Below are positions 234 to 19,732 of a stretch of DNA of 64,000 nucleotides, in pieces. The notes below the pieces were generated by a model. The model was not told where the DNA came from and searched no databases. It saw nothing but the letters and a program-made list of their open reading frames with translations. Source of the DNA: Gammaproteobacteria bacterium (lineage in GTDB: Bacteria > Pseudomonadota > Gammaproteobacteria > Arenicellales > JAJDZL01); NCBI GenBank assembly GCA_022823625.1, contig JAJEHQ010000023.1, positions 1-64,000 on the forward strand, read 5' to 3'. The number at the start of each line of letters is the position of its first letter. The stretch's first letter is position 1. The position numbers and the translations under genes were made by a program.

Positions 234-1976
234 TTAGAGATTTACAGCTTCAATGTTCTCCTCTCCAAACCATTTGCGAAGCGTTTGCATGGCTACAGCG
301 GATAGCTGTTGGGTGAAAAGAACGGCCAAGCGCCTTTTCGGCCTTGAACAGGTGACGTAAAAAAGATTCCGATTTCGCTCGAATTTAGCATATTTGGTTT
401 CGGGTATGTGAGGATGCTCCGTTGCCAACTCAAGCATTTCGTTGAAGTTATAGCGATTCCAACCTCTGCCGATGACGACCACCACGTTCTCAAACTCAGC
501 GCCTTTTACCCCGTGTTTAGTCTCGAATGGAGAGTGACCCGATAAATACCGACACAGAGCAACAATTTCCTGATAAGGAATGGCACGAAGTTTATCCAGC
601 TCCTCCAGCGTTCGCGGCATATCCTCACCAGCCTCTGGATCGAACTCACGTAATTCGCGTTCGCGTCTTTCAACGGCATCGGGAACCCTCGGCCGACGTA
701 CCGCAAGCAAATGGTTGACCACTTCACCGACTGTCCCGCTTTTTCTTAGCTCGATGAGCTGGTCCATGGCATCTGACCATTTCCTTTTTTCTTGGTGAGA
801 TCGGATTGCTGGTACGTTAGATCCGAGTGCACGGAACATCTCTCCATAATTTCGTAAGAGATATGCCTCACAAGCCAATTCCAGTGTGTCCGCGAAATAG
901 GCGACATGCGGATGCTCCTTTTTGGTGAAGGACTCATTGAATGCAAATACCGAGGGAATGCTGGGATACCCTTGCATACCTGCAAGAACACGGTGGGTGA
1001 GCATTAGTATTTTGGTAAATTCGGGAGACAAGTCCCAATTCTCTAGGGTAAGACGATTGAGGACGGATTGTAGTGCGCGATCAGCGGCTTCGGAAGGAAG
1101 ATCGCCACTCCAGTGACTACCAGTCTGACGGTCACCTGTCCAGGTATTGGTGTGAAAGATGCGAACACTGCCTTCGTCGTTCGGATCGACAACAGACTGG
1201 GGTAGCTGGGGTCTCATTTTATTCAGGCGATCAACGACTGTTGAAACCGACCGAAAGTTCGCTTGCTTGCCGATAATTCTTAGACTTGAATGTTCTATCT
1301 GTCCGCATCCATCGCCGTAAATCTTCTGCCAATGGTCACCGAAGAAACCGAATTGCGGTGAGTTTTCCTGTCCTAAGAAGTGTTTTTTGATAGAGTTAAT
1401 CCAGTTGGCATTGGTGTCTTGGTATTCGTCGATCAATATGATTGGATACTTTTCAGTCAGAATTCGTCTGAATTTGGAGTTGTTCATGAGTTCGATGGTC
1501 AGGATGAGAACATCATCGTGATGGAGGGAAATACGATGGTCGTTCATGCTTCTGTATCCAAGCTCGTACTCAACGCGACGCTCCCCGAGGTCTCCGATTT
1601 CGGCGATTTTCTCGGGCCAATGCTTGAGTCCCGGCAATCGTTCCTTTAGTTGACGCTGGAAGCCGCCGATGAGCGACCAGCAGAATGCATGGATAGTATT
1701 ACAATAGATTAGAGGGCTGCGGTCTGTCCTTGCGTCAATCTCATCTTTTGCCACGTTCGTAAATGTTATGCAAGCAATTTTTTGATGCTGTGGCAGAATG
1801 TGTTGGTTATGGTCAATGAGGAAATTGAGAGCCTTAACGAGCGTGTATGTCTTTCCCGCGCCAGCACCAGCTTCGACGAGGAAGCTCTCCTTGTGCTCTA
1901 GGCATTGATATACCTCAGCAAGCGCTTTTCGGCTGGCTTCCTCGGCTGGGTTCAGGTGTTCTACGACCTCAATCAT
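234..1976 (-). CDS. gajB-like: UvrD/Rep-like helicase, GajB-like partner of an OLD nuclease (Gabija-like)
   Basis: Superfamily 1A helicase of about 580 residues. Visible motifs are the Walker A loop AGAGAGKT (residues ~36-43), motif Ia (CITFTNVAKDEI), the Walker B/motif II DEYQD (~183-187), motif III (FFGDHWQKIYG) and C-terminal motifs (HGVKGAEFENVVVV, FYVTCSRPKRR). I chose the ATG at 1976: it overlaps the stop of the upstream OLD gene by 8 nt and has a GGA element upstream, whereas an ATG 27 nt earlier has no ribosome site. A helicase directly downstream of and translationally coupled to a TOPRIM OLD nuclease is the Gabija architecture. It is longer than the well-studied GajB (about 490 residues). 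Expected role: DNA-end or nucleotide-sensing helicase that works with the nuclease. Family assignment is firm; the Gabija label is inference from the pairing. Confidence 0.82.
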   Translation of the reverse strand: MIEVVEHLNPAEEASRKALAEVYQCLEHKESFLVEAGAGAGKTYTLVKALNFLIDHNQHILPQHQKIACITFTNVAKDEIDARTDRSPLIYCNTIHAFCWSLIGGFQRQLKERLPGLKHWPEKIAEIGDLGERRVEYELGYRSMNDHRISLHHDDVLILTIELMNNSKFRRILTEKYPIILIDEYQDTNANWINSIKKHFLGQENSPQFGFFGDHWQKIYGDGCGQIEHSSLRIIGKQANFRSVSTVVDRLNKMRPQLPQSVVDPNDEGSVRIFHTNTWTGDRQTGSHWSGDLPSEAADRALQSVLNRLTLENWDLSPEFTKILMLTHRVLAGMQGYPSIPSVFAFNESFTKKEHPHVAYFADTLELACEAYLLRNYGEMFRALGSNVPAIRSHQEKRKWSDAMDQLIELRKSGTVGEVVNHLLAVRRPRVPDAVERRERELREFDPEAGEDMPRTLEELDKLRAIPYQEIVALCRYLSGHSPFETKHGVKGAEFENVVVVIGRGWNRYNFNEMLELATEHPHIPETKYAKFERNRNLFYVTCSRPKRRLAVLFTQQLSAVAMQTLRKWFGEENIEAVNL

Positions 1977-4020
1977 CGATAGAATTTTCCGGATCGGAGA
2001 CATCTACAACAGGGTTGGTTTGCGCAACTGCCGCATCTGAATAAGGTATACCGCCGCACGCCAGCCACCTTAGTCCATCGAGGATGTAACCAGGTGTGTT
2101 CCAGTTGGTTTCGTCAATTGCGTATTTAAGAGCAAACTGAGTCTTCTTAATCTTGTCGAGTTTTTCCCATGCGCACAGAGCTTTGTCCTCATGAGTACTA
2201 CCTTCGATTGTGAACATTGCTGGATTTGCAAGCATGAATGCGTCTTCGAAAGTACGGCCGCAGGGACCACCGTTAGCTTCGGGCTGCTGAAAGGCGATTC
2301 GTCGGAGATTCTGGATCTTGGAGCGGTCCTTTTTTATGATTAGTTCTGCTGGCGAGCAACCATCGCCATGATACCAAGTGTTGAGACAAGCGTTGCTACT
2401 GGCGGTTCCCTTATGAACCGGGCAGGCTACACCATTCTCGTTGACCGAATCAAGGTCTGTGATAATAAGAGTACGCAGTTCCAGGAAGTCGAGAAGGTCG
2501 AAAAAAATATGCGCATACGCGCCGCCGACTTCTATCGTCGTCATGTACTGGTTGGACAGCTTAGGCGCGTCGGGTTCGGCTAGTTCAAGCTTTTTAATAA
2601 TCACGGGTAGCAATAGACGCTCGCTCGTACCTTCGATCAATACAGCCTTGTCTGCGAAGAACAAATCGCACCGTGTCAGTGTTAGGTACTGATGGAGAAA
2701 CTTCCTGTGATCAGGTGGGGATTCGCGCATTCCTTCACGAAGGTCCTTGATTTTGGTGTGGCGAATGCCATCCACGGAGGTCGGAAGAAAATACCGAATC
2801 GTCTCGAAACCCGCGGCATTGGCGATGTGAGATGAATGTGTTGACACGATGAACTGAACCGGCCAAGTCAAACGAGCTTCTTCCTGACTACTAAGTTGCT
2901 TAGCAATTTTCGACACCTGACGGATGAAAACTTCCTGCATCTGTGGATGCAAATGAGCCTCTGGTTCCTCGATGAATACGAGATGGATGTTGGACAAAGT
3001 CTGTCGCGCGCGAAATGCGCGATAGAAGCTGACGATCTGAAGCAGGATAAATATGAGATTGCGTATCCCGAGGCCTGTATAGGACTCGGGTAGCAGGATT
3101 CCATGATGGCCTGCGTATCTCACCTTTGTGTGACGTGAAAGAAGGCGTTCAACGTCGAGTGTTGTCTCCGTCTCCAACTCGGAACCATCAAGTCCAGGAT
3201 AGCCGAATGTTTGCAATGTAGGCATCAGTTTCCGAAGCTCTTTTCGGAACCCGCCTTCGATCAATTTTTGAATTTCGTCGACAGCATCTTGAAGGGCCTT
3301 TGCAACAAATTGCTCTTCCTCATCAGCGGATGGCGATTTTGCTGCGATGAAGAGATCTTCCAAGATTTTAGCTAGAACATCGGTATCTCTAGATGTGTCG
3401 TCATCGAGTCCACGTTGTGCATTCACAAAACCCGTACTGAGGAGAGACCGGAGCGCACTCACGGGCATCTGCTTTTGGTTCGTGGGGTCGTTAGGATCTT
3501 CGGCCCATAGTTTGGTTGTGAAAAGAGAGGGTATGCGCTGACGCAAGTTCTGGAAGAAAACCAATCGGTCTTGGTCAGTCAAGTCTCCAGTCGGCTGGTC
3601 TGCAAAAAATACATCAATGGCGCCGTCGCGTAAACCATAGCGTGCGACGACTAGAGCTTCTTTGCAGTCGGGGTCGAGGTCAATGACGAAGTCGCTAAGT
3701 GCGCCAAGCTCCGGTTGTTCGGGGTCATATTCGACTAGTAATCGCAGCTCGATACTCGGAATTAAAGCACGAACTTCATCATCTTGCTGGCCCGCATTTC
3801 TGGCCTTGAGCGCTTCGCAGAAATCGTCATATGAACTAATTGAGAAGTCTTCAATCTGAAATCTCGGATTAGGGTCCATGAGAAATCGACGGATGACCTC
3901 GGAAAGCGATGTCTTTCCACTGTTGTTGCGGCCAACGATGAGAGTCGTTTGGTTTTCGAGCACCAAATTGGTGTCGGCCAAGAGGCGGAAGTTTTTGACT
4001 GTGACTCTATGGATGTGCAT
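1969..4020 (-). CDS. gajA-like: OLD-family ATPase with TOPRIM nuclease domain, GajA-like (Gabija-like)
   Basis: Class 2 OLD (overcoming lysogenization defect) protein of about 683 residues. Numbered from a possible GTG six codons earlier, it shows Walker A GRNNSGKTS (36-44), a degenerate ABC signature near GLGIRN (322-327), Walker B VFIEEPEAH (354-362), a switch-like STHSSH (399-404), then a TOPRIM domain starting at LIEGTSE (467-473, catalytic Glu) with the acidic DLD (528-530). I prefer the ATG at 4020 because the family typically begins with a strand resembling HIHRVTVKNFR. The family couples ATP binding to site-specific nicking or cutting of DNA, and in Gabija it degrades phage DNA when nucleotides are depleted. 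First gene of a two-gene operon with the helicase. Confidence 0.85.
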   Translation of the reverse strand: MHIHRVTVKNFRLLADTNLVLENQTTLIVGRNNSGKTSLSEVIRRFLMDPNPRFQIEDFSISSYDDFCEALKARNAGQQDDEVRALIPSIELRLLVEYDPEQPELGALSDFVIDLDPDCKEALVVARYGLRDGAIDVFFADQPTGDLTDQDRLVFFQNLRQRIPSLFTTKLWAEDPNDPTNQKQMPVSALRSLLSTGFVNAQRGLDDDTSRDTDVLAKILEDLFIAAKSPSADEEEQFVAKALQDAVDEIQKLIEGGFRKELRKLMPTLQTFGYPGLDGSELETETTLDVERLLSRHTKVRYAGHHGILLPESYTGLGIRNLIFILLQIVSFYRAFRARQTLSNIHLVFIEEPEAHLHPQMQEVFIRQVSKIAKQLSSQEEARLTWPVQFIVSTHSSHIANAAGFETIRYFLPTSVDGIRHTKIKDLREGMRESPPDHRKFLHQYLTLTRCDLFFADKAVLIEGTSERLLLPVIIKKLELAEPDAPKLSNQYMTTIEVGGAYAHIFFDLLDFLELRTLIITDLDSVNENGVACPVHKGTASSNACLNTWYHGDGCSPAELIIKKDRSKIQNLRRIAFQQPEANGGPCGRTFEDAFMLANPAMFTIEGSTHEDKALCAWEKLDKIKKTQFALKYAIDETNWNTPGYILDGLRWLACGGIPYSDAAVAQTNPVVDVSDPENSIDD

Positions 4021-4991
4021 CTTAAGGCTTAGTGCCACAGAATGGCGTAAAATCTCCCGAGTTTACTTTACATGACATGCTAACAGCGATCTTATTTTAT
4101 CTTGCGGTTTTCATGTATCTGACTTATTTGCCCGCCTACCGATAGTTCAGGTGACAAAATGACGTCAACCCTGTATAGCTTCAATTTCTTCTAATCGTGC
4201 GATCCGGTACATTGGGATGCCGCTATGAATATACTAGTATCCATCCAGTGTTAAACATTGAGCGATCATGTTCTTTGGTATCGCTGAGTAATGGGTGGGT
4301 CGAATTCATTTAATTCACAACATCCCTCAATTGCCTACCGTGCTCGAACAAGGACGTGATCGAAGCGGGGATCTTATTACTCACTCCGTGTCACCAAAAA
4401 TGTTGACATTTTTTGACAGCCAATTATGGGGACTTTTAAATCGTCATTTGCGAAATTTGAACGAACGCTTTGCCAAGTAGTTGGATGAAGTCGCCAACAG
4501 ATGCTGCTGCCACCGCTGTAGCTGTGTTATTCAGATACCAGTGGCGAATGAAAGAAGCCGGCAACGAAAACGATTCAGGGATTATGCATCGGCCGCTTTG
4601 GTTTTACGAGGTTATCTGTAAGAGACTGGCAACATCATAAGTATCGTACTTGTGGACACCATTCAAGCGCGCCTGGTGAGGCTGAAGATCATTTGCATTG
4701 AAAGTGCTTGATACAGCAGTGTGGATGCAAGCAACGGTTTAGTTTCCCTAACTATTCCGAATAAAATCCCCTAGGAAAGGTAAATGAAGATTTGCCTTTA
4801 TGCCCTTTAACGGGCACAAACGACAAGTTGCTCTATCTTTGGATTTCTTGGAGATTCAGATGGAACGTAACGACGAAAACGTGGAAGGAAAATTTGATGA
4901 TGCATGAACTGCGATCCGATGCTCTTTCGATCAAGGAGATAATGCTCAATTAGATGCGGATATTTGACATGGAATCTTTAAGTTAATAACT
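4021..4991. other. ~970 bp without a recognisable gene
   Basis: Separates the Gabija-like operon from the next gene. The plus strand has only short open frames broken by stops; one of 61 codons at 4295-4480 shows nothing familiar. A 10-bp palindrome lies at 4231-4240 without obvious context. The stretch 4760-4960 reads as broken coding-like sequence and may be a decayed gene, but I could not name it. Promoters of the flanking genes must lie here; no strong consensus was identified. Confidence 0.4.
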
Positions 4992-6773
4992 ATGACTAGC
5001 AGTTACCGAAATCCTATTACGATTGAAAATGCTATTATTCAAATAGTAGAACGCAAGTACCTATTACCTGCAATTCAAAGAAAGTTTGTTTGGGATAGTT
5101 CCCAGATTTGTGTTCTTTTCGACTCGATTATGCGTAAATATCCAATTAATACTTTTATGTTCTGGGAGGTCAAAGATGAGGATGTAATAAAGGACAACCA
5201 CTTTTACAATTTCCTTGAGAACTATTGTGAGCGTTTTGGGGAGAACAATAAAGAATTTGGAACTGAAGGACACAAAGATTTTTTCGCTGTGATTGATGGC
5301 CAACAGCGTTTAAACTCACTATATTTAGGGCTGAAAGGTAGTTACGCCTATAAACTCCCTAGAAAATGGTGGCCAAGTACTCAAGACGATGACATTCTTC
5401 CACCTCGAACTTTATACCTAAATTTGTGCTCTCCTATTGACGATGAATCAGAAGAAAATAAGATGTACTATGAGTTCAAGTTCCTTACTGAACATGAATT
5501 TCAATCTGACAAAAACAATGCAAAAAAATATTGGTTCAAGGTAGGAGAAATACTCAACTTTGAAGAACAAGATACTACCACAGATGTAGTTTTCTTTGTT
5601 AATCGAAAGTTGGCAGATTATGGCTTGTCTGAAAACGAGTACGCTTCAAAAACCTTATGTCGTCTCTATGAAGCAATTCGTTTAGATCAATCTATTCACT
5701 ATTACTGTGAATCGAAACAAAGCCTGGACCATGTCTTGGACATATTTCTTCGAACAAATCATGGTGGAACACATCTTTCATTTTCCGATTTGCTGATGTC
5801 TATGGCTGTGGCAAATTGGAAAAGTGATGCTAGGCAGAAAATTGACTTACTTGTCCAACAGGTTCAAAGTGGAAATAATATGGGGTTTACAATTGATCGT
5901 GATTTTGTTCTGAAGACATCATTAGTACTTACCGATGCAAATGTACAATTCAAAGTTAAGAATTTCACACCATCTACGGTTAGCGCTATTGAAGAAAATT
6001 GGAATCAAATTAGATATTGCGTCCTCGCCACATTTGAACTGGTAAAGTCACTTGGCTTTAACGACACTTCTTTGAGTTCAAAGAACGCTGTGATTCCAAT
6101 AGCATTTTATTTATTTAAACACGAACTATATTCGGAAATTAACAATAAAAGCAAACATGGCGATAATAGAAAAATCATTGCACAATGGTTGCACATGTCA
6201 CTTCTAAAGAGAGTATTCAGCGGGCAAAGTGACACAGTACTGAGAAATTTGAGAAATGTTATTGAGAAAAATTTGTTAATTGGGATGCAATTTCCTTTGA
6301 ATGAAATTATCGCTGAATTTCGAGGAACAAATAAAGACTTGAAATTCGACGACGAATTCATTGAAAGACTACTAGCTACACAAAAAAATGATCAATCTTG
6401 CTTTTCAATACTCGCACTTTTGTTCCCAGACTTAGACTATACACAATCTCTAGATATCGATCATCTTCATCCAGAAGATGCATTCAAAAAAATTGATGTT
6501 GGTGAAATTCCCCAGAACCAACTGACATTCTATGAGGATAGGGAAAATTGGAATAGTATTGTTAATCTCTGTCTTTTAAGCTCTTCAATTAACAGACAAA
6601 AAGGAAAGAAATCGCTTCACGATTGGATACAAAACCCCAACGTTGAAATTGGTCGCAATGATCTACTAATTCCTCCGCGAGTGGATTTAAGATTTAAATC
6701 ATTTAAAAAATTTGTCAAAGCTAGGAAATCTCACTTAACAAAAAGGGTTAAATTGCTGATCGGGGAAATTTAA
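4992..6773 (+). CDS. DUF262-DUF1524 fused protein, GmrSD-like type IV restriction enzyme
   Basis: 593 residues. The N-terminal DUF262 (ParB/sulfiredoxin-like NTPase) part shows LPAIQRKFVW (~27-36) and the hallmark VIDGQQRLNSL (~101-111), plus the family's NHGGTHLSFSDLL segment near 255. The C-terminal DUF1524 His-Me finger nuclease part shows DIDHLHP (~490), equivalent to the HxxP catalytic motif, and SSSINRQKGKKS (~540). GmrS and GmrD are the two halves of an enzyme that cuts modified (glucosylated hydroxymethylcytosine) DNA; fusions of both halves are common in defence islands. Target here is unknown. The gene is strikingly A+T-rich relative to the metabolic genes of the window, consistent with transfer. 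It stands alone, convergent with the ImmA-like gene. Confidence 0.82.
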   Translation: MTSSYRNPITIENAIIQIVERKYLLPAIQRKFVWDSSQICVLFDSIMRKYPINTFMFWEVKDEDVIKDNHFYNFLENYCERFGENNKEFGTEGHKDFFAVIDGQQRLNSLYLGLKGSYAYKLPRKWWPSTQDDDILPPRTLYLNLCSPIDDESEENKMYYEFKFLTEHEFQSDKNNAKKYWFKVGEILNFEEQDTTTDVVFFVNRKLADYGLSENEYASKTLCRLYEAIRLDQSIHYYCESKQSLDHVLDIFLRTNHGGTHLSFSDLLMSMAVANWKSDARQKIDLLVQQVQSGNNMGFTIDRDFVLKTSLVLTDANVQFKVKNFTPSTVSAIEENWNQIRYCVLATFELVKSLGFNDTSLSSKNAVIPIAFYLFKHELYSEINNKSKHGDNRKIIAQWLHMSLLKRVFSGQSDTVLRNLRNVIEKNLLIGMQFPLNEIIAEFRGTNKDLKFDDEFIERLLATQKNDQSCFSILALLFPDLDYTQSLDIDHLHPEDAFKKIDVGEIPQNQLTFYEDRENWNSIVNLCLLSSSINRQKGKKSLHDWIQNPNVEIGRNDLLIPPRVDLRFKSFKKFVKARKSHLTKRVKLLIGEI

Positions 6774-6873: not shown

Positions 6874-7758
6874 TTATTTCCTTCTTTTTTTCGATGGCCA
6901 TGGAAGAATTCCATCCAACTCCTCGAGTAAAGGATTTTCGTAATCTGAAAATTCAAAATCATATTCTTTCATGACAGGCAACTCCTCGTGAAACCAGATA
7001 AGCGAAAGACATTGACGCAACTCACGAATTACAATTGATTCTTCAATCATGAGTCGATGGTTTTTCACTCCATTGACAAACCATACATCTGAGGAGATTT
7101 CATCATTATCTTCTGCAGTTGTATCACTGTTCAATATCCGCTGGGCAACACTACCTTTGGGCACGAGGGTTCCAAATTGTATCCATCCGTTTAGTTCACG
7201 TAAAGAAGTTGACCTAGAAACATATCGAATTTTCCCATCTTCAATTAATACGAACGCACACGGAACATCGCAATTTACAGCAAAGCGTGACCCCGTACAT
7301 GTAATTGATGCTTTATATTTTTTTGCGAGTTCCTTTACGGAATTAAACGAAACATCAACATCACTTACATCTTTCTTGAAGAGGGCGAAAGGTAGCAGGC
7401 ATTCTGCGGCAAACACGTCACAGAAGATTTCCTCTTGTGGACGCTTTCGATAACTGATCAATTCGGATGTGGACAAGTTGGAACTATGGTGTATTGAAGG
7501 AAGATTAAGGATTATGTGAGCGATCTCATGCAGTATAGTGAATCGTTGGCGTTCTTCACTGTGGTTCCCGTTTATTGCAATGATGTGTTTGGAACTTGAA
7601 GGAAATGTTTGCCCAGATTCGTCATCATCAAAATCATGACTGATTCTGATTTTGGCATTTGCAGCTTTTGCGTATTGTTCGATATCTACTGGAATAGAAT
7701 CGACACCGACATCCTCAATGAATTGACGAGCTTTTAAGATTACTGACAGTTCTTGCAT
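6874..7758 (-). CDS. ImmA/IrrE-type metallopeptidase, possibly CapP-like
   Basis: 294 residues with the zinc peptidase signature HEIAHIILN (HExxH, about residue 77) and the downstream EEIFCDVFAAECLLP helix that supplies the third ligand in ImmA/IrrE peptidases. The family cleaves or antagonises HTH repressors, usually encoded next door; ImmA does this for the ICEBs1 repressor and CapP for the CBASS repressor CapH. It lies 5 nt downstream of the XRE gene in one operon, and that operon is divergent from the CBASS operon, which makes a CapP-like role in derepressing CBASS the leading idea. The C-terminal ~150 residues have no domain I recognise and could sense a signal. The peptidase family is firm, the CBASS link is inference. 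Confidence 0.8.
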   Translation of the reverse strand: MQELSVILKARQFIEDVGVDSIPVDIEQYAKAANAKIRISHDFDDDESGQTFPSSSKHIIAINGNHSEERQRFTILHEIAHIILNLPSIHHSSNLSTSELISYRKRPQEEIFCDVFAAECLLPFALFKKDVSDVDVSFNSVKELAKKYKASITCTGSRFAVNCDVPCAFVLIEDGKIRYVSRSTSLRELNGWIQFGTLVPKGSVAQRILNSDTTAEDNDEISSDVWFVNGVKNHRLMIEESIVIRELRQCLSLIWFHEELPVMKEYDFEFSDYENPLLEELDGILPWPSKKRRK

Positions 7759-7763
7759 TCAAT

Positions 7764-8141
7764 TTACTCGTCGTTCATTAACTTAGATAACTGCTCAGCT
7801 TTTGTTATCCATTCGTCGTGAGTTACAGGACGCCTGCCCCGAAAACTCATCTGTGCAAGCGGTGCCAATAGATCTAATGATTGATTCTCATCATAGAGAA
7901 ATACATCTATGAGTTGAGGGTTGGCTTGTATCCCAACAAGTGTGCGTAAAAGCTTTGCTCTATACGCAGATAGCTTCAAAGTTCGAACTAAAGAATCGAC
8001 CACATCGTCTGAAGGGGATGTTTTTTCATCTTTTTCCAGACGATAAATATAGGCGTGATCAACTTCACACAGTTTACTCAGTTCTCTAAGACTCAGATTG
8101 CGTTCTTCTCGAAACTTTCTCAAAGCATATCCAAATGACAT
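7764..8141 (-). CDS. XRE-family HTH repressor, possibly CapH-like
   Basis: 125 residues. A classic XRE helix-turn-helix occupies residues 1-65 (ALRKFREERNLSLRELSKLC, then HAYIYRLEKDEKTSPS). The C-terminal half, including GRRPVTHDEWITKAEQL, has no recognised domain and is where a partner peptidase could act. A strong ribosome site (AGGAGG, 5 nt from the ATG) sets the start. It is followed 5 nt later by the ImmA-like peptidase. Its promoter region is shared with the CBASS operon and contains a perfect inverted repeat, so autorepression plus repression of CBASS is likely. Confidence 0.82.
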   Translation of the reverse strand: MSFGYALRKFREERNLSLRELSKLCEVDHAYIYRLEKDEKTSPSDDVVDSLVRTLKLSAYRAKLLRTLVGIQANPQLIDVFLYDENQSLDLLAPLAQMSFRGRRPVTHDEWITKAEQLSKLMNDE

Positions 8142-8152
8142 TCAACCTCCTA

Positions 8153-8181
8153 TTGACAAATAAAAATTTATCCATTAACAT
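8153..8181 (+). promoter_or_regulatory. Candidate sigma70 promoter for the CBASS operon
   Basis: TTGACA at 8153-8158 is followed after 17 nt by TAACAT at 8176-8181, pointing toward the YjzC-like/CBASS genes. The predicted start of transcription falls inside the inverted repeat at 8180-8201, a good position for repression. The -10 match is modest, and a second TTGACA at 8261-8266 is an alternative -35 with a poorer -10. Confidence 0.45.
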
Positions 8182-8201
8182 GTTGTCCATATAGACAACA
8201 T
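8180..8201. promoter_or_regulatory. Perfect palindromic operator between the XRE repressor and CBASS genes
   Basis: ATGTTGTC (8180-8187) and GACAACAT (8194-8201) form an exact 8-bp inverted repeat with a 6-bp spacer, the usual geometry of a dimeric XRE repressor site. It overlaps the candidate plus-strand promoter and lies 40-60 bp upstream of the XRE start codon, so one site could control both directions. A second, weaker inverted repeat (TTGTAT/ATACAA, 8251-8272) lies closer to the CBASS genes. Confidence 0.6.
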
Positions 8202-8330
8202 ATTTGAATTTTATTGTTAAAATAAATGTATTTAGACAGTCTATATATCATTGTATGCTGTTGACAATACAAGCAACAATTTGACCAATATCAATATATT
8301 TTAACATCCGACACATAACGGAGGAAAGTT

Positions 8331-8513
8331 ATGAATGGCAAAAGTTGGAAACCAGGTCAGAAAGCACCGCAATCTGGCCAGTACATGATTGTTGGTCCTC
8401 GTGGTAAGAAAGGACCGGAGAGAACGGTGGTAAAGGGGGAACCCCTTCCACCCTCACTCAGAAAAAACCAACGATACGTCCTTGTCGACCCAACTCGGAC
8501 TAAAGACACGTAA
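8331..8513 (+). CDS. YjzC-like small basic protein, first gene of the CBASS operon
   Basis: 60 residues, rich in Gly, Pro, Lys and Arg (WKPGQKAPQSGQY, then IVGPRGKKG, then GEPLPPS). The PGQKAPxSGxY start resembles the small YjzC-like family, whose function is unknown. A strong GGAGG 5 nt before the ATG shows it is translated. Only 6 nt separate its stop from the patatin gene, so it is most likely the first gene of the CBASS transcript. It has no membrane segment or catalytic motif. It could be a regulator, chaperone or cofactor of the effector; no function is assigned. Confidence 0.7.
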   Translation: MNGKSWKPGQKAPQSGQYMIVGPRGKKGPERTVVKGEPLPPSLRKNQRYVLVDPTRTKDT

Positions 8514-8519
8514 TGTGTT

Positions 8520-9539
8520 TTGAATAGCGTCGGAAAACAGCAAGGTCAGTCAATACGCCGCATTCTCTCTATAGATGGAGGCGGAATACTGGGTACATTC
8601 CCAGTGGCTGTCCTTGCCGAACTCGAACAAAATCTTGAGCAACCAATTGTCTCATATTTTGATCTGATTGCAGGTACTTCAACAGGTGGTATTCTCGCTA
8701 TCGGTTTGAATATGGGACTTTCAGCATCAGAGTTGCTTGATTTCTACGAAAAACGAAGCTATGAAATATTCGGCCAGAATAATGGAAAGTTCGCAAACGC
8801 TTTATGTAGATATTTACAAGGTTTACATTGGATTTACCGCAGTAAATACCGTTCTGACGTACTACGAAACGTACTCAAAGACGCTCTTGGAGACAAAATA
8901 ATTGGCGACGCAAAGACCCGCATGATTATTCCAGCATGGAATTCTGTGGCGCAAGGCGTCTATATTTACAAAACAGCACATCACAAAAAATATAAAACCG
9001 ACCATAAATCATTAGCTCTAGATGCAGCACTCGCGACATCAGCGGCTCCGACATATTTCGCCAGTCATATCACTCAACAGGATGCGAGCCTTCTTGATGG
9101 AGGAATTTGGGCAAACAATCCTATTGCTATTGCCACCGTTGAAGCGATTGCAGTTCTTGGTTGGCCCCGTGAGTCGCTTCGGATATTAAGCCTTGGCTGT
9201 CTGAAGGAAGCCTATTCGATTCCGAAACGAGCCGGATTGGGTAATTTGGGTCCCAAGATTATTACGTTAACTATGGACGGTCAATCGCAAGGCGCGATGG
9301 GAATTGCAAAACTACTTACTGGTCACAAGTTCGATCGCACTGCAATATTTCGAATAGATCATACGGTTCCATTTAGCGCATACAAAATGGATGATACAAG
9401 TGTTGTTCAAGATCTCAAAGGACTTGGTCACGCAATAGCCCGCGAACGACTACCAGAACTCGAACCAATTTTCTTTCAAGAATTGGCTGAGAAATTTTTG
9501 CCTGTTCACGAACTTAATGAGAATACAAACAATGATTAA
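8520..9539 (+). CDS. capV: Patatin-like phospholipase, CBASS effector (CapV-type)
   Basis: 339 residues with all patatin signatures: the glycine-rich oxyanion loop DGGGILGTF (19-27), the nucleophile elbow GTSTGG (52-57, Ser54) and the catalytic Asp in LLDGGIWANN (Asp193). CapV enzymes are activated by the cyclic dinucleotide made by the neighbouring CD-NTase and hydrolyse membrane phospholipids, killing the infected cell. The start is a TTG at 8520: an in-frame TAA at 8511 rules out anything longer and no ATG lies before the oxyanion loop. It overlaps the CD-NTase gene by 8 nt. No transmembrane segment is present, as expected for a soluble effector that attacks the inner membrane. Confidence 0.88.
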   Translation: MNSVGKQQGQSIRRILSIDGGGILGTFPVAVLAELEQNLEQPIVSYFDLIAGTSTGGILAIGLNMGLSASELLDFYEKRSYEIFGQNNGKFANALCRYLQGLHWIYRSKYRSDVLRNVLKDALGDKIIGDAKTRMIIPAWNSVAQGVYIYKTAHHKKYKTDHKSLALDAALATSAAPTYFASHITQQDASLLDGGIWANNPIAIATVEAIAVLGWPRESLRILSLGCLKEAYSIPKRAGLGNLGPKIITLTMDGQSQGAMGIAKLLTGHKFDRTAIFRIDHTVPFSAYKMDDTSVVQDLKGLGHAIARERLPELEPIFFQELAEKFLPVHELNENTNND

Positions 9540-10716
9540 CGCAATTAAATACTCAAGATTTTTAAATAGTATTGCGGAAGAAATTGACATTTCCCCAAGT
9601 AAATATCAGGATGCAGTCAATCGCTACGAAGCGGTTGGACTCTGGCTTGAAAGAGGTGATTATGAAGAATTTTCAGACGAATTAACGATATACCCACAAG
9701 GCTCATTTCGGTTGGGAACAGTAGTTAGGCCGATAAAAAATGGTTTTGAATCCAGTTACGACATTGACTTGGTTTGTGAACTTCCAATGGACAAGGAAAT
9801 AGTTGCTCCGCGTTTAGTCAAATCGATAGTTGGTGATCGTATTAAGGAGCATGGAATATACCGACAATTACTTCAGGAAGAGGGGAAACGATGCTGGACA
9901 CTTGAATATGCAGAGGAAGATGGAATTGGCTTCCACCTTGACATTTTACCTGCAGTTCCAAACCCACTGACAAACGCCGATGCATCTATTGCAATTACCA
10001 ACAAGAGAGACTTTTCTTACAGTTGGTCAGCTAGCAATCCTAAAGGTTATGGGGTTTGGTTCGATAACAAAAATAGGTCTGCATTTGAATTCGTATTACA
10101 TGAACAGAAACAATCGATTCAGGCACGATCCCCAGATATTTTCTTGCGTGTCGAAGATGTTCCAAACCAACTCGTACGTACACCTCTTCAACGCGCAATT
10201 CAGTTAATGAAGAGACATCGCGACGTATATTTTGACGATCGACATTCAAATGAATATTCTCCAATTTCAATCGTAATTACAACCCTTGCTGGACACTTTT
10301 ATCGGAGCGAATTGGACACGTTTACAGCGTTAAGTAACATAGTAGACAGATTACATGCACACGCGGAACTTATTGCAAATCAATCAATCAATAGCACAAG
10401 TCCAATTAAACGAACTCAGGATGGAAAATGGTATATAGGAAATCCAGTAAACTCCAATGAAAATTTTGCTGAACGTTGGCATGAAGACAATCACGCACGG
10501 GCAATAGCGTTTTTTACTTGGATAGATGCTTTAAATAGAGACCTTGTCGAAATCATAAAGGAGACGCGTTCCGAAGACATACGTAAAATTCTTTCTACAT
10601 CATTGGGGATAGCCATTGCAACGGCTCATTTCGAATTAATTGTACCTGTAAGGTCTGAAAATATTGAAGTTCCAAAGATTCATATACCGCATGCGGCAAA
10701 GCCTTGGAGGGTTTGA
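9532..10716 (+). CDS. cdnX: CD-NTase (cGAS/DncV-like cyclic nucleotide synthase), CBASS
   Basis: About 394 residues. The nucleotidyltransferase core shows YPQGSFRLGT (helical GS motif, ~Ser58), the metal-binding pair in SYDIDLVCEL (~Asp77, Asp79) and the third Asp in FHLDILPAVP (~Asp137). These features define SMODS-type CD-NTases that make cyclic di- or trinucleotide messengers on phage infection. ATGs at 9517 and 9532 are both possible; I prefer 9532 because GAGAA lies 8 nt upstream and it overlaps the effector stop by 8 nt. The C-terminus (AAKPWRV) would be the site acted on by the E2-like partner in type II systems. The product nucleotide cannot be told from sequence alone. Confidence 0.88.
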   Translation: MINAIKYSRFLNSIAEEIDISPSKYQDAVNRYEAVGLWLERGDYEEFSDELTIYPQGSFRLGTVVRPIKNGFESSYDIDLVCELPMDKEIVAPRLVKSIVGDRIKEHGIYRQLLQEEGKRCWTLEYAEEDGIGFHLDILPAVPNPLTNADASIAITNKRDFSYSWSASNPKGYGVWFDNKNRSAFEFVLHEQKQSIQARSPDIFLRVEDVPNQLVRTPLQRAIQLMKRHRDVYFDDRHSNEYSPISIVITTLAGHFYRSELDTFTALSNIVDRLHAHAELIANQSINSTSPIKRTQDGKWYIGNPVNSNENFAERWHEDNHARAIAFFTWIDALNRDLVEIIKETRSEDIRKILSTSLGIAIATAHFELIVPVRSENIEVPKIHIPHAAKPWRV

Positions 10717-11457
10717 GTGGAAGACGAATTATTAAATCAAATCAAAGAACTTCAATGCGTACATGATGGTTTAATTCTTGTAAGGAAATCAGCAAGCGAA
10801 ACAGTTTTATCTGGCATATTGAATTTTGAAGCATCGGTTGATGGCTACGAAACAATCTCCAGTAGATTCGAAATTGATCTCATTGTTCCAATTGACTACC
10901 CAGAAACATTGCCGTGCGTTCGTGAAACTAGTAAAAAAATTGATAGTAATTACGATCACATAAATTCGGACGGTACATTATGTCTTGCAATCCCTATTGA
11001 GGAGCGGAGAGTTTTCTCAGAGCAACCATCACTTCTAGGATTTATAAATAGATTGCTAATCCCGTACTGTTATGGCTATTGCTACTGGAAAAAATACCAA
11101 ATTCATCCCTTTGGCGAAGCTGAGCACGGTTTCAAAGGAATTGTTCACTTTTATATGAACTCACTTCAATTGAAGGACGAAGTGTCTGTTTTATCTGTAA
11201 TTTCATACCTTTATGAACATGGTTATCGTGGACACCATCGGTGTCCATGTGGAAGTGATCAAATAGTTCGGAAGTGCCATGGAAAACTGCTACGTTCGCT
11301 CATAGAACAACACTCAACCCACACTCTAGAAAATGATTTTTTATCCATTCTTATCTATTGCTCGGAGAAAAATGAAAGAGAAGTGATCAAGATTCCAGAG
11401 CGTCTTCACAGACAAATACTTCGCATACTACAAACGGCACAGAAACAATGTCGTTAA
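10717..11457 (+). CDS. cap2-like: E2-like protein with SEC-C zinc motif (short type II CBASS ancillary protein)
   Basis: 246 residues. The N-terminal ~150 residues resemble a prokaryotic E2 fold: IDYPETLP (59-66), then HINSDGTLCLAIP with the putative catalytic Cys89 and His81 in an HxN-like position. The C-terminus carries a SEC-C zinc motif CPCGSDQIVRKCH (176-188). There is no E1 adenylation domain and no JAB peptidase gene nearby, which matches short type II CBASS, where a lone E2-like protein modifies the C-terminus of the CD-NTase and tunes its activity. The GTG start directly follows the CD-NTase stop, with GGAGG 6 nt upstream. The SEC-C addition is the unusual part; its role is unknown. 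Confidence 0.78.
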   Translation: MEDELLNQIKELQCVHDGLILVRKSASETVLSGILNFEASVDGYETISSRFEIDLIVPIDYPETLPCVRETSKKIDSNYDHINSDGTLCLAIPIEERRVFSEQPSLLGFINRLLIPYCYGYCYWKKYQIHPFGEAEHGFKGIVHFYMNSLQLKDEVSVLSVISYLYEHGYRGHHRCPCGSDQIVRKCHGKLLRSLIEQHSTHTLENDFLSILIYCSEKNEREVIKIPERLHRQILRILQTAQKQCR

Positions 11458-11567: not shown

Positions 11568-12404
11568 ATGCTCATAGCAAACATCAGCGGGCAAAGAGTT
11601 GAAGCAAGTTTTGCTAATAAAGGGCCTACATATCACTGCCCCAAATGTAGGGATGTTGTCATTCTCAAGAAGGGTCGGATTGTAACGCATCACTTCGCTC
11701 ACAAGCCCCCTGTCCGTTGTAGTTGGGCGAAAGGAGAAACCCGTGAACATTTGAAGGCTAAGCAACTATTCAAACAAGAATTTGTTCGCAGAGGATTGCG
11801 GGTGGAAGTAGAGCACGAGATACCGTCATTGCCAAACGACCGACGGGCAGATGTGGTGGTTTGGTCGCCCAGAGGACAAAAGTATGCTTTAGAACTTCAG
11901 CATACTGCCATTGACTACAACAGTCTGGAGAATCGTACTGAAAGTTACATTCACGCAGGTGTGAGGGTAATTTGGGTTCCCTTCATGCGTCCAAAGTATT
12001 GGAAGGAAGCAAACGAATTGGGACCAAATGTCGATGGAGACTTTCTTATTGAGAGATTCCCCGCACGTCCCTTGGAAAAATGGGTGCACGGATTTAATCT
12101 CGGAAAATTTTGGATGTTTGATTCCGATCGAAACGCCTTATGGTGTGCAAAACTTTACAAGCATGAGATATATGTCGAGGAGTCTTCATGGTTTGACCCC
12201 GATGGTGAAAAAGTTTCCGCGGGAGGGTATTCGAGGATATCTAGGAGATGGCGTGAATTGAAGTTGTGGGGACCGTATGAATTGGAGCAAGTGTCTATTG
12301 GGGCAAAGAAGCGATCATCGAAAAAAATGGGGAACCACAACTATCCGGGAGGTATAGTGGGAGAGTTTGTTGTTAAAACAAAGAACGACAAACTTGTTCC
12401 TTAA
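11568..12404 (+). CDS. CoiA-like nuclease-domain protein
   Basis: 278 residues. A small treble-clef-like zinc site comes first (YHCPKCRDVVIL near 25-36), followed by THHFAHK, which is typical of the CoiA-like family, and then a PD-(D/E)xK-like core: RRADVVVW (~88-95) and YALELQHTAID (~102-112), giving D-x(n)-ExQ. CoiA was named from competence in streptococci, but CoiA-like proteins also occur widely in defence islands; a nuclease role is inferred from the fold. The HNH gene starts 28 nt downstream, so the two probably form one operon. No close match to a named defence system is claimed. Confidence 0.72.
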   Translation: MLIANISGQRVEASFANKGPTYHCPKCRDVVILKKGRIVTHHFAHKPPVRCSWAKGETREHLKAKQLFKQEFVRRGLRVEVEHEIPSLPNDRRADVVVWSPRGQKYALELQHTAIDYNSLENRTESYIHAGVRVIWVPFMRPKYWKEANELGPNVDGDFLIERFPARPLEKWVHGFNLGKFWMFDSDRNALWCAKLYKHEIYVEESSWFDPDGEKVSAGGYSRISRRWRELKLWGPYELEQVSIGAKKRSSKKMGNHNYPGGIVGEFVVKTKNDKLVP

Positions 12405-12432
12405 ACTGGAATATTTTGATCTAGGTAAAATT

Positions 12433-13077
12433 ATGATCCCTGATAATATTGAAGTTGAGCATATATTGAAAGCAGTAGATGAAATCGATCGAGAGGGGAT
12501 TCCCTCATCCCGGCGTTCGGTACACTACGGTCTCATCAAGGATGGAAAGCCGTATCCACCAAAATACATAATTTCGATTGCAAATAAGTATGCCAATGGA
12601 CGTCAGCATCCCCCAGGTCGGTTTAATGCTGTGGAGGCAAAAAACTACTTGGCTCGTGAAAAATTTCATCAAGAATTTCAAGTAGTTGATCGACGCGAAG
12701 TAGGCAAAATAACGATTGCAACTGAAGATGATGAATCAGCCTACCCGGAAGGGAAAGGGCGGTACCGTCAGCATAGATCATATGAGCGCGATCCAAATTT
12801 CGCCAAGAAGGCCAAAAGGAACAGGATTAACTCTAGAGGAAAGCTTCAGTGTGATGTCTGTTCCTTTGACTTCAGTGTAAAGTATGGAGAACTTGGTAAG
12901 GGGTTTATAGAAGCACATCACACAGTTCCTGTGGCGAATTTGAGTGGTAAGCGAAAAACAAAATTGTCGGAAATAGCACTGGTTTGTTCTAACTGTCATC
13001 GAATGCTGCATAGAGGGAAAACACTTCTATCGATTGAAGAACTTACCAGAATAATTTCGAGGAATTCAACAGACTAA
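12433..13077 (+). CDS. HNH endonuclease (McrA-like C-terminus)
   Basis: About 214 residues from the ATG at 12433, preceded by AGG 8 nt upstream; an ATG at 12367 in the same frame would overlap the previous gene by 38 nt and is less likely. The C-terminal HNH domain has CDVC (zinc), IEAHHTVPVANL (catalytic HH), LVCSNCHRMLH (second zinc pair and Asn/His). The N-terminal 100 residues contain RRSVHYGLIKDGKPYPPKYI, resembling the modified-base or DNA-recognition domain often fused to HNH nucleases. McrA-type enzymes cut methylated or otherwise marked DNA. A two-gene unit with the CoiA-like protein is likely, ended by the hairpin at 13081. Confidence 0.8.
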   Translation: MIPDNIEVEHILKAVDEIDREGIPSSRRSVHYGLIKDGKPYPPKYIISIANKYANGRQHPPGRFNAVEAKNYLAREKFHQEFQVVDRREVGKITIATEDDESAYPEGKGRYRQHRSYERDPNFAKKAKRNRINSRGKLQCDVCSFDFSVKYGELGKGFIEAHHTVPVANLSGKRKTKLSEIALVCSNCHRMLHRGKTLLSIEELTRIISRNSTD

Positions 13078-14716: not shown

Positions 14717-17173
14717 TCAATTATTAGTCACAATCATTCGCAGCCTTTCCTGCTGCTGCTTAATCCAGTCAGCAACCTCTGGCCATGAATCTTCGTCATC
14801 GCGCATCCATTTTTTCTGCACCGTGATAGTCCATCCTTTGTCACTGTTTTTCTCGATATCGTCTCCAAGAGTTTGATCACCCATCTGCCTTTGGATTAAC
14901 CAAGAATAGCGTTTCATTCGTTCAGAACTTGCTTTCGATCGCTGACTTTCTCCTGCACGGACATATAACCAAAGTAACTCGGGGTTTCCAATGTAAATTC
15001 CGATAATATCACCAAGCGAGTTAATGGAAGTAGTCCATTGTGACGGACCTCGCCAAGTATCTTTTTGTCCCGGAAGGCCACCGGTTTGTTTTTTAAGAAG
15101 CTTCCAAAATGCCTGGTATTCATTTGTCTCTGGAAATTCCACGTCAATACTGACACCACATCGTCTGCCCAATTCCCGACAGTGCTTTGCGCTAGTGGGA
15201 TAGTCTCGCATATATGGATACATCACATATTGTTCATGTCCTGGTATTGCGTGCATAGTGAGTGATCCGACTTTAGAGCCGGGTGGATAGACACTAGCCA
15301 AGTGAATATTTGGAATAATCGCTTCCCCAGTGAGTTTTTCAGCATTTGAGGAATCGTGGTTTAAGAGTGCTGCAGCAACATTCAAGACCATCTGACTTGC
15401 TACGTCTTCGGTTCGCCAAGACTCAGATTGAAATCGCCACCGCAGTCCACTAGCAAAGAGTTGTTTTACATCTTCAGTAGTTTCCAGTTCGTGCCACGGC
15501 CAGCGTTCCAATGCTCGATCAGCCAAATATTCAAAACGCTGATCAAGTGCACTCTCATTCCAATAATCAAATTTTGCAAGCTGTCGCGTGATGCCTATAG
15601 CACCCCTTTTATATACAGTTTTTTTCTGGCTAAATGGATTTGCACCCATTTCAGAATTAGTCTGATCGCCACTTAGAGTCAGATTAGAAAGGCAGTTGAC
15701 GTAGCGTTTGTGAATTTCATCAGCAGTGTCTCCTAATCCCAGTCTCCATTCATTTGTCATTTTTTGTGGCATCACATGTTCGATCGTCAATTGATCAGGT
15801 GAGGGAGTTTCCTCTCGATGATCTTGTTCTGCCAATGCGTAAAGTATTGCAAATGATGACTTCGTGGCACTACCCCCATAGGCTTTTCGAGTTTGGATTC
15901 CATTTCGAACTTCGTCGTCATTTGGAACACCTACGCGGGTGTTGCGTCGTTTGTGAATTTGACTCAGCCAGTAATCCGCAAGATCGTCACGCTCACTTGG
16001 CCCTCTCTCATGTGCGATTTCTGCAATAGCGGTATTCATTCCTGCTGTCGGTTTATCTGCTAACCACAATCGGGTAATCCATGAACTAATCCCCTTGAGT
16101 ATCTCTACTAATCCATCCTCATCAAAAGTTTCCTTGATCCGTTGATCTGACGCATCGTCAAGTAGACGAAGAGTTAGTGGTCGGTGGACATCAATCCCGA
16201 TAGCCCGCAGGTGCCGCAACTCGCGTTCGACTTTTTTATTGTGATGTTTACCTGCTGTTCCTGTTAGAATTCCATAGATATTTGCCAGACGAGCAAGTTC
16301 GTGACATAGTGCTGGACGCTTATTTAAATTTCCTTCGCGTACTGCCCATCGACGAAGATCTTCGTACGTTAAGTCAATTCCTCGAACCTCACCAGTTTGC
16401 CATCGCAAAAAGTCTCGTAAAAATTTGTCAATAGGCTCAGTTGAATATTTAGCGCCTAAGACCTCTTCAATTTTCAACCAATAATTGTCGTGAAGGCTTT
16501 GTTGCTCTTCATCTGGTAGCCCCATGAGTAACCAATTCTTCACTTTCTCGCTTTCTGTAAGAGGACGGCCGGTGGCGTTCAGGCTCTCAAAGATTTGCTG
16601 AGGATCTTCATGCTCGACCCCTATGCTGACTACTTTGAGTTTTGAAAGGCCCTTCAGTAGAAGGGCTACGTCATTTCGGGCAACTAATTGACGGGAAATT
16701 CTCCACGCTTGCGTAACAGCACCAACACCTCCAGGCTCACCTTCTAAACCTTGACGGTATTCCTCTTTGTCTCCATCTTGAAGTTTCAATTTAAGTCGTT
16801 TTTCGAGCGGTTTCTTCGGATTGGTTAGAAGATCGTCATAGATGTTTTCTGAGGTCCAGTCTCCGCAGTGCCCCGTATCTCCCAACTTATCCGCAATACA
16901 AGCCAGGAGAATGCTAACTGTGGTTAGTCTCTGCTGCCCGTCAACTACGCGTATGCTCTTTACTACTCCAGCCGGGCCACCTGGTTCTGGGAAAGTGAGA
17001 AGTGTGCCTCCGTAGTGCGTAATTTCTGAATCTTGTGATGCTACTGTCAACAAATCGTCAACCAGTCGTTCAATATCAGACTTGCCCCAACGGTACCGTC
17101 GTTGCCACCGCGGCACGACATATTGCACTTGACCATTAAAAAGTTGTAGAAACTCTATGCTTTGTGCCTGCAT
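14717..17173 (-). CDS. DUF262-DUF1524 fused protein with extra C-terminal domain (GmrSD-like)
   Basis: 818 residues, a second and unrelated-looking member of the GmrSD-like group in this window. DUF262 motifs: VVPRWQRRYRWGKSDIE (~19-35), VVDGQQRLTTVSIL (~76-89) and FESLNATGRPLTESEKVKNW (~190-209). DUF1524 motif: TIEHVMPQ (~462-469, HxxP) with LSNLTLSGDQTNSEMG after it. The last ~230 residues, rich in Trp and with LWLYVRAG, look like a DUF4268-like endonuclease-associated domain. Single gene, divergent from the DUF6998-like pseudogene. Expected to cut modified phage DNA; the specificity is unknown. Confidence 0.82.
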   Translation of the reverse strand: MQAQSIEFLQLFNGQVQYVVPRWQRRYRWGKSDIERLVDDLLTVASQDSEITHYGGTLLTFPEPGGPAGVVKSIRVVDGQQRLTTVSILLACIADKLGDTGHCGDWTSENIYDDLLTNPKKPLEKRLKLKLQDGDKEEYRQGLEGEPGGVGAVTQAWRISRQLVARNDVALLLKGLSKLKVVSIGVEHEDPQQIFESLNATGRPLTESEKVKNWLLMGLPDEEQQSLHDNYWLKIEEVLGAKYSTEPIDKFLRDFLRWQTGEVRGIDLTYEDLRRWAVREGNLNKRPALCHELARLANIYGILTGTAGKHHNKKVERELRHLRAIGIDVHRPLTLRLLDDASDQRIKETFDEDGLVEILKGISSWITRLWLADKPTAGMNTAIAEIAHERGPSERDDLADYWLSQIHKRRNTRVGVPNDDEVRNGIQTRKAYGGSATKSSFAILYALAEQDHREETPSPDQLTIEHVMPQKMTNEWRLGLGDTADEIHKRYVNCLSNLTLSGDQTNSEMGANPFSQKKTVYKRGAIGITRQLAKFDYWNESALDQRFEYLADRALERWPWHELETTEDVKQLFASGLRWRFQSESWRTEDVASQMVLNVAAALLNHDSSNAEKLTGEAIIPNIHLASVYPPGSKVGSLTMHAIPGHEQYVMYPYMRDYPTSAKHCRELGRRCGVSIDVEFPETNEYQAFWKLLKKQTGGLPGQKDTWRGPSQWTTSINSLGDIIGIYIGNPELLWLYVRAGESQRSKASSERMKRYSWLIQRQMGDQTLGDDIEKNSDKGWTITVQKKWMRDDEDSWPEVADWIKQQQERLRMIVTNN

Positions 17174-18196: not shown

Positions 18197-19732
18197 ATGG
18201 TTCGTAAATTCCAAGTAAAGGATGACTGGCTGAACGGGAAACTCGCGATCGAGCCGCATAAGTCAAGCGGACAAGTAGAGGTGTTTTATATCCCATCTCC
18301 AATATTGTTGGCTGAGCATGACATATATCCCGATAATGCTGAGGACTACAAGAAGAAATTGATTGAATTCAGCACCAAATCAGGAAAGTTCTCAATTTAC
18401 CCAATAAATACAACAAGTCAAGGCGACAAATTTCTAAAACCAAAATACAACAAGATTAGAAAAATTACACTGGCTGACGGAACACCAGTTTTGTCTGAAA
18501 GTGGAGACGAAACTGATTTAGAAGGAGGATATGTTCGTTCGGTGACTTTCGGAAAAACGGAGCCGATCCAGCACAAAATAGACGAACAGGCAATTTCGAG
18601 TAGTCCGAATTCTGACGAGCAGATCATCAACATTCTTGAGAGTTTGCCACCTGCTTTTACCAAAGACTATGACTACGGTTTGGGTCTCGCGAATCGTTAC
18701 AGATTTATCGTGGAAGCAATAGAGGAACTCACGAATTGTACAGAAATAGAGATATCGAAGCACTGCGAAACTGAAGTTGATGAAGTGAAAGGGCTATTTC
18801 ATATCAATAGTTCCGACTTCGAAATAGTGCGCAAAATGTTGAATGCGACAACGCACTTGGGACAAGTTGCGGGACGCACTGTAAAGCAAACAGAGACGTA
18901 TAACTTCTTTGCAGAAATACTTGGTCAGAAGACAATTACTCTCAACATGGGGCGTCATCGGTTGCGCAAGCTCTTCACGGCAGCAATTCACAATGACAAA
19001 TTAATATTGTCGGACGCAGAGCAGGAAGAAATCGTAAATACCGTCATTCGGAATGTGAAGTCTATTTCCGAGAGTAAACCGGAAAGGCTGATACGATTGC
19101 AAAATGATCTGGAACTTGCAAATCTTGAAAGCTTCATTGACCGATTTCGTTCAATGATCAATTCAAATCTAGTTGAAAGCAAATGGCAGAAGTTTTTCCA
19201 TACGAATCCACTTGTTTTGAGTCTGGCCTTTGGCTATCCAATAATCAAAATTGGGCAACAGGCATCAGTTGGAGGAAGAAAAATATTTGGCGGCGGTGAG
19301 AAAATTACCGATTTCCTGATGAAAAACAAAGTGACGAATAATGCTGCGATAGTAGAAATTAAGACACCTCGCGCGAAACTCGTACAGAGGGAAGTACGTA
19401 GTGGCGTATTTTCGCCTTCCCGCGAAATTTCGGAAGGCATTGTTCAAGCACTTGATCAGAGGTTTCAGTTTCAAAGCGAAATTTTCATGATAAAGGGTAA
19501 AAGTGGAATATACGATCTTGAAACCTATTCTGTTCAATGTTACTTGGTGATTGGAACCATTCCGACCGAGAAGGAAGAACAGAAGTCGTTTGAATTGTTC
19601 AGGGGAAATTCGAAGGATGTCCAGATTATCACATTCGACGAACTGTTGGAAAACTTGACTCAACTGAAGGAACTACTGGCATTGTCGGAAAAAGACAGCA
19701 ACGAGTTGGGTGAGAGAAAGGTGCTTTTCTGA
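18197..19732 (+). CDS. sduA: Shedu nuclease SduA (DUF4263)
   Basis: 511 residues. The C-terminal ~180 residues form the DUF4263 nuclease: ITDFLMKNK (~371-379) and AAIVEIKTPRA (~385-395) supply D-x(n)-ExK, followed by EISEGIVQALDQRFQF and ITFDELLENL. The N-terminal ~300 residues have no named domain and are variable in Shedu, where they are thought to sense the phage or its DNA ends. GGAG lies 4 nt before the ATG. Shedu is a single-gene anti-phage system that acts as an oligomeric DNA nuclease. Family assignment is strong on the C-terminal motifs. Confidence 0.85.
   Translation: MVRKFQVKDDWLNGKLAIEPHKSSGQVEVFYIPSPILLAEHDIYPDNAEDYKKKLIEFSTKSGKFSIYPINTTSQGDKFLKPKYNKIRKITLADGTPVLSESGDETDLEGGYVRSVTFGKTEPIQHKIDEQAISSSPNSDEQIINILESLPPAFTKDYDYGLGLANRYRFIVEAIEELTNCTEIEISKHCETEVDEVKGLFHINSSDFEIVRKMLNATTHLGQVAGRTVKQTETYNFFAEILGQKTITLNMGRHRLRKLFTAAIHNDKLILSDAEQEEIVNTVIRNVKSISESKPERLIRLQNDLELANLESFIDRFRSMINSNLVESKWQKFFHTNPLVLSLAFGYPIIKIGQQASVGGRKIFGGGEKITDFLMKNKVTNNAAIVEIKTPRAKLVQREVRSGVFSPSREISEGIVQALDQRFQFQSEIFMIKGKSGIYDLETYSVQCYLVIGTIPTEKEEQKSFELFRGNSKDVQIITFDELLENLTQLKELLALSEKDSNELGERKVLF

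Follow-up and report, generated by a model that had tools for sequence, protein, structure and literature searches.

A DdrO-like CapH/CapP pair with a conserved operator probably controls a short type II CBASS operon

The founding paper on the CapH/CapP pair of the cyclic oligonucleotide-based antiphage signaling system (CBASS) is reportedly Lau 2022, and two structures serve as references for the pair: 7t5t, Thauera CapP, and 7t5u, the N-terminal domain of E. coli MS115-1 CapH. Here we analyzed a CBASS locus in a 64,000-nucleotide stretch (the window) of contig JAJEHQ010000023.1 from a Gammaproteobacteria bacterium, in which an XRE repressor and an ImmA/IrrE-type peptidase are encoded divergently from an operon for a patatin, a CD-NTase and an E2-like protein. 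Suicide systems need to be silent until they are required, and the gene content, the structure models, the conserved promoter and operator and the analogy with described pairs together suggest, with a probability of about 0.82, that the locus is a short type II CBASS controlled by CapH and CapP (CapHP).

PMC10904395 places the PprI cleavage-site region of DdrO at residues 116–121, an E-L-R-G loop, with R118 contacting single-stranded DNA (ssDNA) in a model and being required for ssDNA-stimulated cleavage; it describes CapP as likewise activated by ssDNA. According to this paper and PMC13373217, known CapHP pairs act in the same way as we propose below. PMC13373217 also reports that, among 544 Bub operons, 219 are accompanied by CapW or CapHP, and PMC11153139 reports a B. 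cereus type II CBASS with CapP-CapH upstream, which includes Cap2 and Cap3. The window locus resembles the B. cereus system in its upstream CapHP and differs from it in type, since that system is a long type II CBASS. It is like CBASS-associated CapH/CapP in having a helix-turn-helix (HTH) repressor and an M78 peptidase adjoining the CBASS genes, and like short type II (E2-only) CBASS in its patatin, CD-NTase and stand-alone E2. The genes and their divergent order, which had been read from the open reading frames (ORFs) in the first-pass annotation, were confirmed, and the features are as follows.

6874–7758, minus strand: capP, an ImmA/IrrE (M78) metallopeptidase of 294 aa with HEIAH at residue 77
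7764–8141, minus strand: capH, an XRE repressor of 125 aa, long DdrO-like form (PADLOC capH, E = 9.4e-12)
8153–8181, plus strand: sigma-70-like promoter toward CBASS, TTGACA-17-TAACAT
8180–8201, no strand assigned: predicted operator O1, ATGTTGTC-CATATA-GACAACAT, with exact 8-bp arms
8260–8277, no strand assigned: putative second operator O2, GTTGACAATACAAGCAAC, with 3 mismatches, 78 bp from O1
8331–8513, plus strand: YjzC-like ORF of 60 aa, which heads the CBASS operon here (PF14168, E = 4e-6)
8520–9539, plus strand: capV, a patatin-like phospholipase effector with a TTG start (PADLOC effector PDLC00757, 5e-95)
9517–10716, plus strand: CD-NTase (cyclase), with SMODS and DncV-like domains (PADLOC cyclase PDLC00780, 3.4e-114)
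10717–11457, plus strand: stand-alone E2-like protein with a GTG start (PADLOC E2 PDLC00871, 2.2e-75)

The peptidase is an M78 metallopeptidase with HExxH at the full length typical of CapP. PADLOC capP (PDLC04141) matched residues 8–255 of the 294 (E = 4e-54), Pfam M78 matched with E = 4.5e-14, and phmmer aligned the protein with 7t5t (E = 4.5e-9), although its identity to known CapP is only 21–25%. In Foldseek, the AlphaFold2 model of CapP (pLDDT 86.2; below 50 for residues 266–294) found 7t5t as the best PDB match (E = 5.5e-13) and PprI with ssDNA (8sln) next. The active-site residues H77, E78 and H81 were invariant in 23 aligned sequences, from which L122, with a stop codon in range, was left out. 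Five base pairs away, capH encodes an XRE protein with an HTH and a C-terminal domain that adjoins capP as a module. The proposal that the pair is CapH/CapP is therefore borne out by the PADLOC matches of both proteins and by the fold of CapP.

The HTH of CapH matched 7t5u (E = 3.9e-10). The five best Foldseek matches of its AlphaFold2 model (pLDDT 91.5) were all full-length matches to DdrO chains, with E values from 4.7e-5 to 2.9e-4. The pair parallels PprI (IrrE)/DdrO of Deinococcus, with DdrO as the best full-length fold for CapH and PprI as the second for CapP. The superposition of CapH on DdrO is loose (rmsd ~10, TM ~0.46), and VIA-align supported the HTH part only (Z ~10 over 57–66 residues). 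A profile built from 20 long CapH sequences matched DdrO (6jq1/6rmq) over nearly the full length with E ~2.5e-7. In the C-terminal alignment, which is weak, DdrO ELRGKRPRDKQDW stands opposite the CapH consensus FRG-RP, and the window loop SFRGRRP (F100-R101-G102) aligns with ELRGKRP of DdrO; R101 and G102 were invariant in 26 aligned CapH. By profile and model, CapH thus has a DdrO fold with the predicted cleavage-site loop, the C-terminal match alone having an E value of 0.04–0.13, and the alignment predicts that CapP cuts CapH at or beside F100-R101. In contrast, the CapH proteins inspected at 19 of the 28 classical loci all lacked the RG-x-RP loop, and most of them are of the AFFRK/AFYR type. 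The window CapHP belongs to a distinct DdrO-like subclade and not to the CapH type of 7t5u.

In the intergenic region, the −35 element TTGACA (8153–8158) is followed by a 17-bp spacer and the −10 element TAACAT at 8176–8181, which therefore overlaps the operator at 8180–8201. The exact 8-bp inverted repeat reported over this promoter in the first pass was recovered. The shared region of 189 bp also stood, as 8142–8330, but it ends at the YjzC-like ORF rather than at the patatin gene, whose start is 378 bp from that of capH. Neither this ORF nor O2 had been named in the first pass. The O1 core, GTTGTC-N6-GACAAC (8182–8199), has a single exact copy in the 3.18-Mb genome, at the CBASS locus (weaker sites were not searched), and O1 lies 40 bp from the capH start. 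Within the window alone, one core match with at most one mismatch against 0.21 expected is weak evidence, and a promoter scan over 401 bp gave 3 promoter-like sites where chance alone would give 1.5. Among 396 genomes of the phylum, the promoter–operator pattern was found in the window genome alone, compared with 2 matches of a control pattern. The case for the promoter and the predicted operator is thus comparative and does not lie in window statistics.

The relatives compared were the best 80 of 171 CapP loci in named genomes, 77 of which were scored for the operator (L070, L071 and L107 were dropped as truncated loci or because the motif was not recognised). The core was exact in 62/77, within one mismatch in 73/77 and within two in 74/77, versus 0, 0.1 and 1.6 in first-order shuffles and 0 in the reversed sequence. 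Dereplication at 70% CapP identity, with L071 restored, left 25 loci, of which 18 had the exact core, 5 differed from it at one position, one at two and one at three. The palindrome is therefore conserved upstream of capH, at one mismatch or fewer in 23 of 25, and the rest of these loci, 384,854 bp beyond the upstream windows, held no such site. In L073 the change is symmetric (GTTGTA..TACAAC). For the promoter, 24 loci with O1 35–51 bp from capH were counted: TTGACA (5 or 6 of 6 positions; 18 perfect) stood 26–31 bp before O1 in 22, with 0.043 per locus expected by chance, and a T-A-rich hexamer ending in T followed in 23. A second site lay 64–80 bp beyond O1, at 75–80 bp in 23 of 27 loci; in the interval 62–84 bp beyond O1, 24 of 27 loci had a site within three mismatches versus ~0.2 expected from shuffles. 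L092 was left out of the O2 and promoter counts because its exact site sits at the distal position; in Limnohabitans/Thauera-type loci the exact site is only distal, 108–127 bp from capH.

The site also follows the CapH type. Among 30 CapHP loci of the phylum, both long-CapH loci (2/2) carried the operator close to capH. A site within one mismatch was missing from 26 of the 28 remaining loci and lay far away in the last 2, so that GTTGTC-N6-GACAAC, present near the window capH, is absent near classical capH. A search that started from the motif matched 4 genomes among the 347 of the L084 phylum, compared with 2 for a control pattern; three of the four matches were at long CapHP, but two repeat promoter sequences already represented by L084 and L143, so that one is new. 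The same architecture with both operator sites was present on an IMG/VR contig. A scan of viral contigs with the alignment gave two loci; with a single CapP none was found, and with the CD-NTase there was no relative.

A recognisable divergent partner was present at 68 of the 80 nearest CapP loci, the 12 unassigned ones being mostly truncated. At 45 of the 68 it was CBASS, so the pair is not found mostly away from CBASS, the outcome that would have spoken against the first-pass proposal: 7 were short type II, 36 were labelled long type II (on E1E2/Cap3/patatin matches, the cyclase being verified only in L092) and 2 were other CBASS (L084, L091). The seven short type II loci, all from metagenome-assembled genomes, belong to a planctomycete (L069), Dadabacteria (L071), gammaproteobacteria (L072, L073, L074), an alphaproteobacterium (L078) and Syntrophaceae (L080); in L073 and L074 a stand-alone E2 of a different family lies beside CD-NTase and patatin. 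The remaining 23 partners comprised 19 ubiquitin-like/E1 operons, one MBL-E1/E2/JAB operon (L148) and three E2-like operons. Six of the ubiquitin-like/E1 operons carry BilD (L083, L085, L086, L087, L089, L093) and 13 carry multiubiquitin or E2_E, ThiF and DUF6527; several ThiF and JAB matches were under the Pfam cut-off, and the BilD matches were strong (E <1e-100). We infer that the multiubiquitin-ThiF-DUF6527 operons, which share the CapHP subclade and operator of the window and differ from it in cargo, are Bub operons. The operator is thus not confined to CBASS, as non-CBASS operons share it.

On a CapP tree of 40 rows, 34 of them labelled by partner, at least 7 partner changes were required for 6 classes, where 5 is the minimum and shuffles gave 15.7; treating Bil as its own class raised the count to 9. 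Short type II appeared in two places, and constraining it to a single clade was rejected (p = 0.005), a test weakened because that group was defined only once the first tree was known. CapHP has therefore inherited its cargo in part and exchanged it in part, and the operator has been retained. It seems fairly probable that repressor, protease and a divergent promoter with two operators make DdrO-type CapHP a portable cassette for switching immune operons, which uses one operator code and moves between phyla into unrelated operons, its cargo including CBASS (short type II, long type II and other), Bil, multi-ubiquitin/E1, MBL-E1 and E2/lipase operons. If so, a single local damage-sensing logic would gate many suicide or ubiquitin-like systems, and the repressor of one cassette could cross-repress another entering the cell. 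What appears to be new, judged from these comparisons, is a DdrO-like subclade of CapHP whose operator code is fixed and whose immune cargo is exchangeable, as well as the presence of this subclade beside short type II CBASS across several phyla (7/80 relatives).

Most likely, CapH represses the operon and ssDNA-activated CapP cleaves it near F100-R101. CapH dimers would bind O1, which lies over the start region of the promoter for CBASS, and they would probably also occupy the weaker O2 at the capH promoter; with sites at both promoters, CapH would repress CBASS and itself. Phage infection or other damage would produce ssDNA that activates CapP, which would cut the CapH loop SFRGRRP after F100. 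The CapH dimer would then dissociate, allowing production of the CD-NTase, E2 and patatin. Binding, ssDNA sensing, cleavage and induction are all proposed here by analogy with the described relatives. Unlike PprI/DdrO, the window pair has one exact local operator and an immune-operon partner, and no DNA-repair regulon was indicated (weaker sites were not searched).

Several observations weigh against CapHP control as drawn here. The C-terminal-only profile was not significant against DdrO (E 0.04–0.13), which made up 4 of the 9 listed matches; O2 of the window is degenerate and the capH-ward promoter weak; and O1 deviates in L071 (one mismatch, at 51 bp), L078 (7-bp spacer) and L091 (three mismatches). 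Moreover, the CapHP pair, present in the window, is absent at 12 more distant E2/cyclase loci (L154–L162, L171–L173), among which L155 and L173 lack a cyclase match, L157 lacks an E2 match and L156 is truncated; the switch is therefore limited to some short type II branches and is not general. It would be in keeping with the surrounding defence island, with the frequency of XRE-ImmA pairs outside CBASS and with the M78-type matches that are all most members of another set, of 80 capP-positive genomes, show, if CapHP were a selfish or neighbouring module, such as an ImmR/ImmA-like remnant, which regulates only itself and adjoins an independently controlled CBASS by defence-island clustering. 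We regard this as unlikely, since the conserved −35/−10 before O1 faces the immune operon and not capH (22/24) and the partners are CBASS at 45/68 and further immune-type operons at the other 23.

That the palindrome is a terminator or a host-regulator site and not a CapH site is still harder to accept: it does score as terminator-like on the plus strand, but it tracks long CapH across several partner changes and phyla, is missing near classical capH and shows no T tract conserved among the aligned loci, and its least variable features are the half-site and the spacing. A less distant, though doubtful, alternative is that CapHP controls the CBASS but that CapP responds to something else than ssDNA, such as zinc or a phage protein. 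The C-terminal sensor part of CapP is divergent (21% identity to 7t5t) and activation by ssDNA is known only from relatives; against this alternative, PMC10904395 and PMC13373217 report ssDNA for both CapP and PprI. Control of the CBASS by CapHP through O1 and ssDNA-triggered cleavage remains the preferred reading. It would add short type II CBASS of several phyla to the systems under CapHP control and connect the switches of CBASS with the damage response of DdrO/PprI; the locus offers an exact predicted operator and an exact predicted cleavage loop, and a DNA signature for finding operons wired to the DdrO-like CapHP damage switch.

The CBASS operon has the composition of a short type II system, with CD-NTase and effector, a stand-alone E2 and no E1/JAB gene; neither ThiF nor JAB was matched among the ten proteins of the region that were scanned. 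CapV matched NCBIfam CBASS_lipase above the cut-off, and the PAKPWR-like C-terminal end of the CD-NTase is kept within its clade in the alignment. The E2-like protein scored 17 bits against Pfam Prok-E2_B, under the cut-off; its predicted catalytic Cys89 (DGTLCL) was invariant in 6/6 aligned sequences, and its C-terminus bears a SEC-C-like CPCGS..CH motif. E2s of this kind are rare (4/398 genomes of the phylum and 4/343 of the L069 phylum). Among 100 near relatives, the CD-NTase was matched in only the window genome and one other; the absence of a match in the other same-genus genomes (0/5) suggests a recent gain of CBASS in the window lineage.

Some neighbouring architectures deserve mention. 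L171, from a genome of the L069 phylum, encodes a fused XRE-ImmA protein of 400 aa (3899–5101) upstream of a SAVED/CD-NTase/E2 operon, possibly a single-protein version of the switch. In L148 (2731–7494), the operon under long CapHP combines an MBL-like gene with a fused E2-E1-JAB gene and a patatin gene and gave no cyclase match. In L079 (3359–6781), long CapHP stands by an E2-like SEC-C protein (PDLC00871, 2.4e-28), a matchless 471-aa protein and a Tle1-like lipase. The operons of L076 and L077 resemble it, the lipase being shown in L079 only; no cyclase was recognised in the three, which are a candidate new immune operon. The YjzC-like ORF was not found in the other short type II loci of the 80-locus set; a similar small ORF also heads a CapHP-divergent operon at L038 (10515–10679), giving two cases, one beside long and one beside classical CapHP. 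The defence island of the window spans 234–21319 and further contains Gabija (GajB 234–2003, GajA 1969–4038), HEC-05/GmrSD (4992–6773), a CoiA-like gene (11568–12404), an HNH gene (12367–13077), DUF262-type Orf5/HEC-06 (14717–17173), SduA (18197–19732) and HEC-08/DUF3644 (20246–21319).

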